Shown: in pieces, positions 2,942-35,174 of the stretch | How the letters are laid out: each line of letters starts with the position of its first letter | How positions within the stretch are numbered: the stretch's first letter is position 1 | Virus record (IMG/VR): IMGVR_UViG_3300020394_000267 | Coordinates: 27,070 to 91,069 of that record | DNA length: 64,000 bases | DNA from: a virus | Strand: one strand, 5' to 3' | The notes under the pieces: model-generated | Told to the model about the DNA's origin: nothing | The model's input: only the letters and a program-made list of their open reading frames with translations | Database searches by the model: none | Position numbers and translations under genes: made by a program

Positions 2942-5176
2942 ATGTCCAGCAGATTAGACAGAATAATTAGGGAAGTCCTTACAGAAGGGCAAAGTACCCT
3001 ATTAGAAGCGGACTTGACAAGGAGACTTGACATGCTCGTGAGACAGGGATTAATGCCTGCCTCTCAATTACCTATACTAAAACGCGGTTTAGAGAAATTC
3101 AACCAAGGTAAAGTGCCTGCACCGAATGAAAGAAACGCGGTTAATACACTACTAAACGGTATGATGTTCATCGTATTAGGTGACGATACTGTATTCAATA
3201 GAGCAAGAACTTCTGTACAAAAGAACAGATATCAGACAGAAGAATTTGATGACCTTGAAGAGAAGATGACTGTGGATATTGACCATAGTGGTGAGAAGGA
3301 CGATGCTGCTAAAAAACATGGTATCACATTAAAAAGAACTGGTTCTACTACAGTCAATGCTACAGGGTCACGCAAGAACCTCAAAAAATATCTAACGCAC
3401 CATCATGGCGGAGACAAGAAAGATGCCGCTGATGTACACAAGAGTGTATTCAAAGAAGAACAAGTCGCAATGAGGATGGCGATTGAAGAAGATAAAGATT
3501 GGCCTAGACCTTTTACAAAAGCTGAAAGGTCAGAATTTATGCGTCCCAAAGAAAAGTCTGCTGAAGAAACCAAAGCGATAAAAGACCGCATGAAGGCAAA
3601 GAATAAATCAAGACCTAAAGGTGTACAAGAAAGCGAAGAATTAGATGAAATATCTGATAAGATGAAACTCAATTACATTAAGAAAGCTAACAAAGAAATC
3701 ACAAAGTCGGAAAAAGAGAGAGATGAGATTCAGAAGAGCGATAAGCCAGGTCATGACCAGTCATATAAAAGCATTATGGATTTAAAACATAAATCTGATG
3801 CAGATAAAAGAAGAAAGGGTGTTAGACAAGCTAGAAGTACATTGCAAAAAGAAGAACAACTAGACGAGTATGGTGCAATGTCAAGTGATAAGGCATCACA
3901 CGATACTGGTGGATTCAGAATTTCAAATAAAGACGCCTCTGCTGCTAAAGAAAGAGCAAAGAAAAAGAGTGCAGAGAAACGCGACAAGTTATCAAATATA
4001 ATCAAAAAGAACACCATCCAGAAAGGGCCTATGAAAGGTTACATGACGGATGAAGTTAATCAAGGGGAAGAAAAAATGGATATTGATTGGACAAAAAATC
4101 CTTTCGCTCAAGCAAAAGCCATGGCTGAAGGAAAATTTAAAGACATGGCTACTAGGCAGTCCGAAGAGGAAAGACTCAAGGCAGAGAAAAAAGCTAAGAG
4201 ACTTTCTGATAAAAAGAGTAAAGAAGAAAAAGAGACTGACCCAGGCTTAGACGAGGGTGTTGCTAAAAATACTCTTGATATCTATCAGGCACACGCGGAT
4301 AAGAAAAAGAAAGATAGTCTCAAAGTGGGTCAGAAGGCACCCGATGGGGCGTCAAAAGCCAATGAACGCCAGTTGAGTTCAATCGCAAAACAAATGAACA
4401 AGGCAGTTGATAAAGCAAACGCTAAACTCAAGGAAGAACTAGAAGGACTACCAGAGTTAGATGCGATGGACTATGAGATGTGGGAAGCATATCAGTCCCC
4501 TACAAAGAACAACTACACCGACAAGGAACTTAGACAGGCGAAAGGTATCGCATTTGATAAGAGATACAAAGGTGGTAACATGACAGGTGCTGCTAAGGCA
4601 ATGGAGAAAATCAAGAAAGGTTTATCCGACCATCCTGTTGCTTCTAAAGCATTAAGAAAAGCAAACGAAGAGAACATGAAAGATGAGTGGTTAGACTTGT
4701 TTGATGGTGTAGAAGATTTCAATCAAATTATTGAGATGTCTTATAAAGAAAAGTTTAATTCTATGTTGAAGAAGACAGGTAAAACTCTTGCTGGTATGTC
4801 ACCAGAAGAGAAGAAGAAATTCTTTAACAAAGTAGATGGCGCTCACGATGCAGTAAACGAAAACAAAGCATTTAGAGATGCTGCTAGGGATTACGCGAAA
4901 GATGATAAGAAAGGACTTGCACCTACTAAGAAGGATGCACCTAAAGTATCAGACGCGAAGAACGCCAAAGAAATCGAACATATCGTACCTCAAATGAGGA
5001 AAGCTATTTCAGTAGGTAAGAAAGTGCAATTTAAAGATGGGAAACATCACACAGTTTCCAAGGCACACGCCGCTAAATTCTTGAATAAATACATGAGTGG
5101 CAAACCCGCTGATAAAGAAAAAATGCAATCGCATGCCCACGCAAGTCATAAGAACTTCATGGATCATGCAAAATAG
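2942..5176 (+). CDS. Large Lys-rich phage protein, probable late/virion protein
   Basis: 744 residues with a GGAG ribosome site 5-8 bases upstream. The N-terminal ~100 residues form an ordered helical module (MSSRLDRIIREVLTEG, DMLVRQGLMPASQLPILKR), after which the protein becomes a long, highly charged Lys/Glu-rich sequence with repeated ...EELDEI... and ...EQLDEYG... segments. These resemble the short acidic tails and linkers repeated in marine T4-like phage head proteins. No enzyme motif is visible. A late-type promoter lies directly upstream. It may be an internal head, scaffold or DNA-packaging accessory protein; this is an inference from composition and position. Confidence 0.8.
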   Translation: MSSRLDRIIREVLTEGQSTLLEADLTRRLDMLVRQGLMPASQLPILKRGLEKFNQGKVPAPNERNAVNTLLNGMMFIVLGDDTVFNRARTSVQKNRYQTEEFDDLEEKMTVDIDHSGEKDDAAKKHGITLKRTGSTTVNATGSRKNLKKYLTHHHGGDKKDAADVHKSVFKEEQVAMRMAIEEDKDWPRPFTKAERSEFMRPKEKSAEETKAIKDRMKAKNKSRPKGVQESEELDEISDKMKLNYIKKANKEITKSEKERDEIQKSDKPGHDQSYKSIMDLKHKSDADKRRKGVRQARSTLQKEEQLDEYGAMSSDKASHDTGGFRISNKDASAAKERAKKKSAEKRDKLSNIIKKNTIQKGPMKGYMTDEVNQGEEKMDIDWTKNPFAQAKAMAEGKFKDMATRQSEEERLKAEKKAKRLSDKKSKEEKETDPGLDEGVAKNTLDIYQAHADKKKKDSLKVGQKAPDGASKANERQLSSIAKQMNKAVDKANAKLKEELEGLPELDAMDYEMWEAYQSPTKNNYTDKELRQAKGIAFDKRYKGGNMTGAAKAMEKIKKGLSDHPVASKALRKANEENMKDEWLDLFDGVEDFNQIIEMSYKEKFNSMLKKTGKTLAGMSPEEKKKFFNKVDGAHDAVNENKAFRDAARDYAKDDKKGLAPTKKDAPKVSDAKNAKEIEHIVPQMRKAISVGKKVQFKDGKHHTVSKAHAAKFLNKYMSGKPADKEKMQSHAHASHKNFMDHAK

Positions 5177-5209
5177 TTTTAATAACCAAAAACACATAGG
5201 AGAGAAAAA

Positions 5210-5800
5210 ATGAGTGGATGGGGAGCAACTGATTCAGACGAATCAAAACCAAAGTGGTTAACAGCAGACCAAAAAGAAGATGTCTTTGCTAACTCTAGTG
5301 GTTGGGTTGTAAAAGCTGGGTCAACTATGACAGGAAATGGCAATACAAGTGCCACTCCAGAAGTTTTAGTTGCACTTGGTTCACTTGCGACTTCACTAGG
5401 ACAAGCAACTATTGATGCTGTAGATTGGGAAAGCACAGCTTTTGATGTATCCGATGGTGGAACACTTAAAATTAATGTTCACTATAATGAGGAAATCACA
5501 GTCGCTGGTGCTTCACCTCTAATGTATGTAGCGAACAACCAAGCAGGTGGCGGTTCAGCATCTAGTGTTACATTAACAATGGATGGAAGTTTACCGTTTA
5601 CTGGTGAAAAACTTACATTTAGTGCTACGATAGGTGCTGGTGGCTCAACAATTGTTGCAGACGATGTACTTTCATTCGCAGCTCAATCGATTGACCTCAA
5701 CGGTTCTACAATGGTAGACGCAATCGGTGGTGGAAATGCGGAGAGAGCAATCTCATCTGCACAAGCAACCGCTGGTGGAACACTAACCGCAACTGCATAA
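5210..5800 (+). CDS. Probable virion decoration/structural protein
   Basis: 196 residues starting at an ATG preceded by AGGAGAG. Composition is Ala/Gly/Ser/Thr rich with almost no Cys and a beta-strand pattern (GTLKINVHYNEEITVAGASP, SSVTLTMDGSLPFTGEKLTF), typical of Ig-like or decoration domains on phage capsids or fibres. The next coding unit is the 16-residue Cys peptide, placed with its own strong ribosome site 12 bases after this stop. Assignment as a virion protein is by composition and neighbours; no specific family is recognised. Confidence 0.75.
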   Translation: MSGWGATDSDESKPKWLTADQKEDVFANSSGWVVKAGSTMTGNGNTSATPEVLVALGSLATSLGQATIDAVDWESTAFDVSDGGTLKINVHYNEEITVAGASPLMYVANNQAGGGSASSVTLTMDGSLPFTGEKLTFSATIGAGGSTIVADDVLSFAAQSIDLNGSTMVDAIGGGNAERAISSAQATAGGTLTATA

Positions 5801-5811
5801 GGAGATAAAGC

Positions 5812-5862
5812 ATGTGTAAATGTTGCAAGTGTTGTACATGTACATGCCCAGAGTGTAACTAA
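5812..5862 (+). CDS. 16-residue cysteine-rich micropeptide (8 Cys)
   Basis: The frame reads MCKCCKCCTCTCPECN and stops at TAA; Cys sits at positions 2, 4, 5, 7, 8, 10, 12 and 15. A strong ribosome site (AAGGAG) lies 7 bases upstream of the ATG, and the stop overlaps the ATG of the next gene (TAATG). The peptide is therefore placed exactly like a translated cistron in a coupled operon. Density and spacing of Cys (CxCC, CxC, CxxC) would suit soft-metal or zinc binding as in metallothioneins, or an oxidised disulfide knot. It may alternatively act as a translated leader that couples expression of the downstream virion gene. Coding is inferred from start context only; no homolog is known to me. 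Confidence 0.6.
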   Translation: MCKCCKCCTCTCPECN

Positions 5863-6308
5863 TGGCTGATAGTAAACTTTCAGAATTAACGGCTGCTACA
5901 TCTGTAGCAGCCGCAGATACCTTTTATCTAGTACAAAGTTCTACTAGTAAAGGTGTGACAGCTGCAAATCTATTCGCTGATGTGGCGACACCTGTATCTT
6001 TTTCAGATAAGGTATCAATCGCAGACGCGGATACAGTAACAGGGCCAGGCGTAGTCTCAGTCGCAACGAATGTGACTAGACTTACCAATCCAGGCACAGG
6101 TGGTACACTAACCATTGGTGCTGGTACAGAAGGTCAATTGAAAATTATTGTTATGGATGGCAATTCTAGTGCGGTAACACTGACACTAGACGATTCAGAC
6201 TTAGGTCATGATACCATTACATTCAATAATGCTGGTGATACGGCAACCCTCATATATACTAATAGTAAATGGTGGATGATAGGGGGAACTGCTACAGTCG
6301 CCAATTAG
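5862..6308 (+). CDS. Probable phage structural (fibre/decoration-like) protein
   Basis: 148 residues, start coupled to the Cys micropeptide stop. The N-terminal ~40 residues (KLSELTAATSVAAADTFYLV) match a module that often opens phage tail-fibre or structural proteins. The rest is a Thr/Ala/Gly-rich beta pattern ending with a hydrophobic strand (SKWWMIGGTATVAN), the style of a repeat-like trimeric or decoration domain. No enzymatic motif. Its position among late-type genes supports a virion role; which part of the particle it belongs to cannot be told. Confidence 0.75.
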   Translation: MADSKLSELTAATSVAAADTFYLVQSSTSKGVTAANLFADVATPVSFSDKVSIADADTVTGPGVVSVATNVTRLTNPGTGGTLTIGAGTEGQLKIIVMDGNSSAVTLTLDDSDLGHDTITFNNAGDTATLIYTNSKWWMIGGTATVAN

Positions 6309-6328
6309 ATAATAAAAAGATTTTATGA

Positions 6329-6706
6329 ATGATTGAATTGAATGAAGAGAATTATTTAGTATACGCATTGAAAAATTATAATAGTCCAGAGTGTTCTGGA
6401 ATGGATGATTTTGAAGAGGATGTAAAACGGTTCAAGTACTTGAAGAGACTTTTCCGTAGGTATGAAAGAACAGAAGTCTTGAATGACCGACTCATCTTAA
6501 ATCATCTTATCGTATTATACAATGTTTTTGACAAGGCTGCAACGCCTTTGTTGTTCTATAAGATAGACAAAGAACATTGGTCTATACTAAAAACTTTTTT
6601 GGTATTCTTGAACAGGATGCCAATGGAACAAATAATCACTGGTGGTGTTAGGGGAGATGATATCCAACTAGACATGAAAGTGATTCAGATTTTAAGGAAA
6701 ATTTAA
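6329..6706 (+). CDS. Conserved T4-like marine phage protein (DUF7207-like)
   Basis: 125 residues, all-helical, with charged N-terminus and the segment DVKRFKYLKRLFRRYERT followed by LNHLIVLYNVF. This resembles a small protein conserved in cyanophage and pelagiphage genomes near neck/head genes; I associate it with DUF7207 from memory. No catalytic residues are evident. It is followed immediately by the next ATG (no gap), so both are probably co-translated. Role unknown. Confidence 0.8.
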   Translation: MIELNEENYLVYALKNYNSPECSGMDDFEEDVKRFKYLKRLFRRYERTEVLNDRLILNHLIVLYNVFDKAATPLLFYKIDKEHWSILKTFLVFLNRMPMEQIITGGVRGDDIQLDMKVIQILRKI

Positions 6707-35033: not shown

Positions 35034-35174
35034 TTTGACACCTCCTGTATTAAGAGATGCGTTCCTTCGGCGGAATTGCCTACTTCCGTCCACCGCTACA
35101 TTTAGGGTGGATGAACGAATGTAGTCTTTTCACCCATGACTTATGGAGTACCGATTGGTACAGTATTATTTATC
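35034..35174 (-). promoter_or_regulatory. Structured 140-base leader upstream of the DUF4278-like gene
   Basis: Plus-strand hairpin-capable pairs: CTACATT 35095-35101 with AATGTAG at ~35117-35123; CCAT/ATGG at 35133-35145; GTACC-GATT-GGTAC at ~35148-35161; CGGAA/TTCCG near 35070-35088. The minus strand reads GCGGTGGACGG at 35096-35086, the same 11 bases as non-coding RNA 2 at 33884-33894. A near-consensus late motif (GATAAATA) lies at the upstream end. Could be a cis-regulatory RNA or a third small structured RNA. Confidence 0.45.

Follow-up and report, generated by a model that had tools for sequence, protein, structure and literature searches.

An eight-cysteine micro-gene of marine phages with a putative metallothionein-like product

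Can an open reading frame of 16 codons, squeezed between two ordinary phage genes, be a genuine gene, and what would such a peptide do in the infected cell? The question is raised by the window analyzed here (the whole stretch of 64 kb, a portion of a 91-kb virus record), whose gene content indicates a marine T4-like phage close to the pelagimyophage/Melnitz group. At positions 5812-5862 of its plus strand an ORF is present that translates to MCKCCKCCTCTCPECN*, i.e., 16 residues including eight cysteines. An AAGGAG ribosome-binding site (5799-5804, +) stands 7 nt before the ATG at 5812. It overlaps the stop codon, at 5798-5800, of the gene upstream, which encodes a 196-aa protein of unknown function (5210-5800, +; phrog_11617). 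The last base of the TAA of the micro-ORF (5860-5862) is also the first of the ATG (5862-5864) of a downstream gene encoding a 148-aa protein (5862-6308, +) that matches neither Pfam nor PHROG and is not preceded by a strong Shine-Dalgarno site of its own. It is followed by a gene for a 125-aa protein (6329-6706, +; phrog_407), a context marker widespread in cyanophages. The ribosome site with its spacing, the cysteine content and the TAATG junction, all reported by the sequence-only reading of this DNA, are thus present as it described them.

That reading also held this combination to be hard to explain by chance, and the data bear it out. When the window was shuffled 40 times with its dinucleotide composition preserved, ORFs of 10-40 aa that start with ATG and have at least 30% Cys contained six cysteines at most and never eight, and the cysteine pattern of the peptide occurs once in the whole 91-kb record. 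The window lineage comprises 15 related contigs, one of them truncated at the N-terminus of the peptide, which were all retrieved with the 148-aa downstream gene as bait and, therefore, independently of the peptide. The peptide core is identical throughout, and the DNA differences are all synonymous (4/4 variable core codons; P ~0.0016 under neutrality), so that the conservation of the reading frame, for which a synonymous pattern in related phages had been proposed as the check, is confirmed. The sole exception among the 15 contigs is a GTG start with a six-codon N-terminal extension in L012. The peptide was found in every relative of the 148-aa gene of approximately 93% identity or more for which the upstream sequence was available, and it is retained in L042, where the upstream gene has been swapped for another one. 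Where the identity of the 148-aa gene drops to 86% or below, its homologues are without the peptide and mostly have their own ribosome site.

A second lineage, collected with a nucleotidyltransferase gene as bait, showed five distinct upstream peptides, each keeping all eight cysteines; the changes in the cysteine codons, at least five in number, are all synonymous (P ~1e-4). As both lineages were found by the neighbor gene, they constitute a check free of the bias of a cysteine-pattern search. A conserved DNA or RNA element in place of a peptide was rejected, since TGT/TGC and AAA/AAG interchange freely at conserved positions, and a chance ORF is ruled out by the shuffles, the synonymous-only change and the existence of the family described below. 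At the level of sequence comparison, it is therefore well supported that the micro-ORF is a real gene whose amino acid sequence is kept by purifying selection.

The observation had been made for a single peptide. The peptide is real, but its scope turned out to be larger, as it belongs to a whole family. A scan of IMG/VR for the cysteine pattern yielded, after merging, at least 67 non-redundant phage loci (the number of independent lineages is lower, since related contigs inflate this count) and at least 54 distinct micro-ORF peptides of 13-26 residues. Eight cysteines are invariant in 35 aligned peptides, in the order C-x-C-C-x-C-C-x-C-x-C-(0-2)-C. Apart from the two lineages found by bait, this invariance is in part a product of the search, because most members were found by cysteine patterns. 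With the core C-x-C-C-x-C-C-x-C-x-C in common, the members fall into three sub-types according to their end: type A ends with CxCC (e.g., MSKCKCCECCSCTCCG), type B, to which the window peptide and a tmRNA-adjacent group belong, with CxCxxC(C), and type C with CGCxC (e.g., MCKCCDCCDCGCDC). Cysteine accounts for 550 of 1021 residues (initiator excluded); the others are K, E, N, T, S, D and G plus a few P, R, Q and A, with no single occurrence of I, L, V, F, W, Y or H in the family peptides. A Shine-Dalgarno-like site, of the AGGA type as kept in the window lineage, precedes nearly all members.

The specificity of the pattern was controlled with a scrambled spacing of equal cysteine number, which gave at least seven Shine-Dalgarno-equipped, in-frame micro-ORFs, compared with at least 48 for the family spacing. 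In 5.8 Mb of DNA examined, only five more Cys-rich, hydrophobic-poor micro-ORFs appeared, mostly family-like. An upstream TAAATA resembling a late promoter was considered as a family signal and discarded, as it accompanies 12 of the 67 members, not far above background. Another Cys-rich micro-ORF with a Shine-Dalgarno site (MADCCNCTCGCCTREECQN; L522:364-423 and L608) has a different spacing and lies directly before a terminator-like hairpin; it was at first taken as tmRNA-adjacent and then dropped from that group, as the sequence following it reads as a terminator. No earlier description of the peptides was found in the open-licence literature, and the family, widespread in marine phages, is apparently undescribed.

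Exactly one copy of the motif is carried by each member genome (19/19), while it is absent from all nine comparison genomes, namely HTVC008M, Melnitz and seven relatives. Among named phages, a search by DNA pattern detected it in 0/12 genomes (HTVC008M, Melnitz and ten others). A tblastn search of named phages with a 22-aa member gave no match, although low-complexity filtering may hide matches. All carriers are uncultivated phage contigs, several of them incomplete. A host origin was also considered and set aside: the scan of genome contigs gave two genuine type B matches, L216 and L222, both flanked by genes like those of large phages. Both contigs, which are catalogued under Methylococcaceae and gammaproteobacterial MAGs, themselves resemble large phage contigs, with a tail-fibre-like protein, a tmRNA and many small phage-like genes.

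The surroundings of the micro-ORF vary strongly. Its neighbors include genes for a nucleotidyltransferase or DUF6267, PhoH, a PD-(D/E)XK nuclease, IscU and NfuA-like proteins, genes of the virion region, and tmRNA; the downstream partners are unrelated, and their distance ranges from -4 to more than 200 nt. At the nucleotidyltransferase locus, the cassette present in L313 is cleanly absent from L624-L627, in which the flanking genes adjoin. In L628 (2949-2999; identical in L629 and L630) the slot of the eight-cysteine peptide upstream of the nucleotidyltransferase gene is occupied by a six-cysteine micropeptide, MCKCESCKCDPCTCSN. Since the neighbors change, gain and loss are clean, and conservation is seen at the protein level, the product is expected to act in trans.

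We consider it reasonably probable, judging from the sequences, that this trans-acting product is an ultra-short metallothionein-like peptide. Of the roles put forward by the sequence-only reading, the mini-metallothionein or zinc-binding one is the best supported, resting on the eight-cysteine, hydrophobic-free family motif, even though no metallothionein model matches. Eight close-packed thiols separated by charged or small polar spacers, with no hydrophobic core, would fit a metal-thiolate cluster peptide, by analogy with the established chemistry of metallothioneins, which bind several d10 metal ions in clusters of thiolates. Similarly to metallothioneins, the phage peptides are small and very Cys-rich (at least 50% Cys), contain CC, CxC and CCxCC clusters with polar spacers, and lack aromatic residues and histidine. 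They differ in their length of 13-26 aa, in the fixed order CxCCxCCxCxC(0-2)C, in the missing sequence match and in that their metal binding is putative. The metallothioneins nearest to them in size are the fungal copper thioneins of approximately 25 aa. Bacterial metallothioneins of the SmtA/BmtA type, which are likewise Cys-rich, have a folded domain and a length of about 50-60 aa, and the phage peptides have no Pfam match to them; the substitute MCKCESCKCDPCTCSN of L628 contains a CxCxxCxC element known from bacterial metallothioneins. Neither a family model nor a solved structure matching the peptides was found in Pfam, NCBIfam, PHROGs and PDB. The metallothionein models of Pfam and NCBIfam gave nothing at E values up to 10 for four members of at least 20 aa (the 16-aa form being too short), the sole match in the PDB search was a ferredoxin-like stretch (E 8.3), and a profile search gave none.

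The peptide would fold around a cluster of soft ions, with Zn(II) and Cu(I) as the candidates and Fe as a possibility given the Fe-S neighbors of some members, and would buffer or sequester metal and thiol reactivity inside the infected cell. The phage may gain protection, a supply of metal to its own enzymes, or a metal buffer at the time when host proteins are broken down.

The same sequence appearance would be expected of a thiol/redox or Fe-S helper, which would carry persulfide, iron or electrons for Fe-S assembly of the phage or host, or would serve as a reservoir of reducing thiols. Such a role, unlikely in our judgment, is nonetheless the strongest competitor of the metallothionein-like reading, as an NfuA-like gene lies immediately upstream of the micro-ORF in L230, L243, L294 and L466, IscU lies immediately downstream in L239, and an IscU-like protein is encoded by the window's own record. 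Most members, however, have no Fe-S neighbor, and the CxCCxCCxCxC spacing differs from the CxxCxxCxxxC(P) motif of 4Fe-4S ferredoxins. IscU was found in 10/19 member and 3/9 comparison genomes, without a clear enrichment, and Fe-S co-occurrence was thus rejected as a general rule. The IscU/NifU_N-like scaffold protein of the window's record is located outside the window, at the other end of the record (G000:C1:19-369).

It had also been proposed that the peptide is a translated leader coupling the expression of the downstream gene, then considered structural. As a cis-acting device, its eight cysteine codons would sense the supply of Cys-tRNA or metal, and stalling or termination would control the overlapping gene. 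Cys-containing regulatory uORFs are known, e.g., the copper-sensing CruR (DUF2946), which has CXXC at residues 90-93 and a C-terminal RAPP stall motif, is the first in its copper operon and is separated by a long gap from the next gene (PMC9426467). Like CruR, the window peptide is encoded upstream of another gene, but it is shorter, does not have the CXXC-plus-RAPP combination, as RAPP is absent, occupies a mid-operon position and overlaps the next gene by 1 nt. The TAATG overlap, together with the missing strong Shine-Dalgarno site, suggests that the 148-aa gene is probably translationally coupled to the micro-ORF in the window lineage, where termination at TAATG would also feed ribosomes to it. 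This coupling is local to that lineage and not a property of the family, so that at most a local part of the leader proposal stands. A general role in cis is improbable because the downstream partner changes and may even be a tmRNA, which is not translated as ordinary genes are, and because the 148-aa gene has relatives that lack the peptide and mostly possess a ribosome site themselves. A counter of cysteine codons would, moreover, need neither the conserved non-Cys residues nor the cysteine spacing, and a cysteine attenuator is not seen, as no terminator-like hairpin or other terminator-like site occurs at 5100-6400 of the window and the downstream genes vary among members. A ten-pair hairpin (GGCTGCTACATCTGTAGCAGCC; 5890-5913, +) lies within the 148-aa gene, at its start, with paired changes preserving the pairing in several homologues of this gene with or without the peptide. 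A link of the hairpin to the micro-ORF was rejected, since it also occurs where the peptide is absent.

Even less probable is a role in the virion, where the peptide would accompany head or tail proteins, either packaged together with them or attached to them, and give them a metal site or cross-links. Several members are indeed located among genes whose products start with FKDYL or FKDFL, which, from T4 biology, we take to be T4-like capsid-targeting-like sequences, but others have a tmRNA, PhoH, nuclease or NfuA gene as their neighbor, which is a poor fit to a dedicated virion part.

One branch of the family adjoins tmRNA, a striking association recognized post hoc. The tmRNA starts 0-7 nt after the stop of the micro-ORF in L222, L234, L248 and L303 (model matches above threshold); in L256, it lies directly downstream, as seen from its genome, and in L216 (approximately 70 nt away) and L317 its 5' end is visible in the sequence. 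These micro-ORFs are of type B, and the genes further upstream differ among them. Although these seven arrangements would suit a functional unit of micro-ORF and phage tmRNA in viral trans-translation, we regard this as very improbable, since most members, the window included, are not beside a tmRNA, and in relatives of the window the two are far apart (e.g., ~100 kb in G001). A match to the permuted tmRNA model RF04321 of Rfam in L256 (154-356, -), spanning the Cys-rich ORF and an ordinary tmRNA start, is probably a cross-match to standard tmRNA.

Returning to the metallothionein-like reading, its sequence features suggest that some of the smallest gene-encoded metal-binding proteins are probably to be found in these viruses. 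A broader proposal, for and against which we see about equal chances, is that of a virus-specific family, maybe the smallest gene-encoded metallothioneins, in which a cassette of ~55-70 bases (ribosome site and ORF) has spread among diverse marine phages and holds metal or thiols during host takeover, with one branch tied to viral tmRNA. Genes this short fall below the usual annotation limit, yet tens of phage contigs carry this one in differing surroundings, and codon-level evidence can reveal such conserved micro-genes in virome data. If the peptides bind metal, phages would handle the chemistry of Zn, Cu or Fe by means of only 13-20 residues, which would put a lower bound on the size of gene-encoded metal-cluster proteins and provide a simple, synthesizable peptide for metal-thiolate chemistry.

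The phages related to that of the window, i.e., the Melnitz/pelagimyophage group (Kyanoviridae), are described as having a glutamine riboswitch and a two-piece tmRNA (PMC9004378). Melnitz has a distant homologue of the 148-aa gene, and both Melnitz and HTVC008M differ from the window phage in being without the micropeptide. On the minus strand of the window, a glutamine riboswitch (35056-35119; RF01739, 60 bits) is followed by a short ORF from ~35033 (MTTQLNYRGVKYNGTI...). Its product may resemble the small proteins under glutamine riboswitch control in cyanobacteria.
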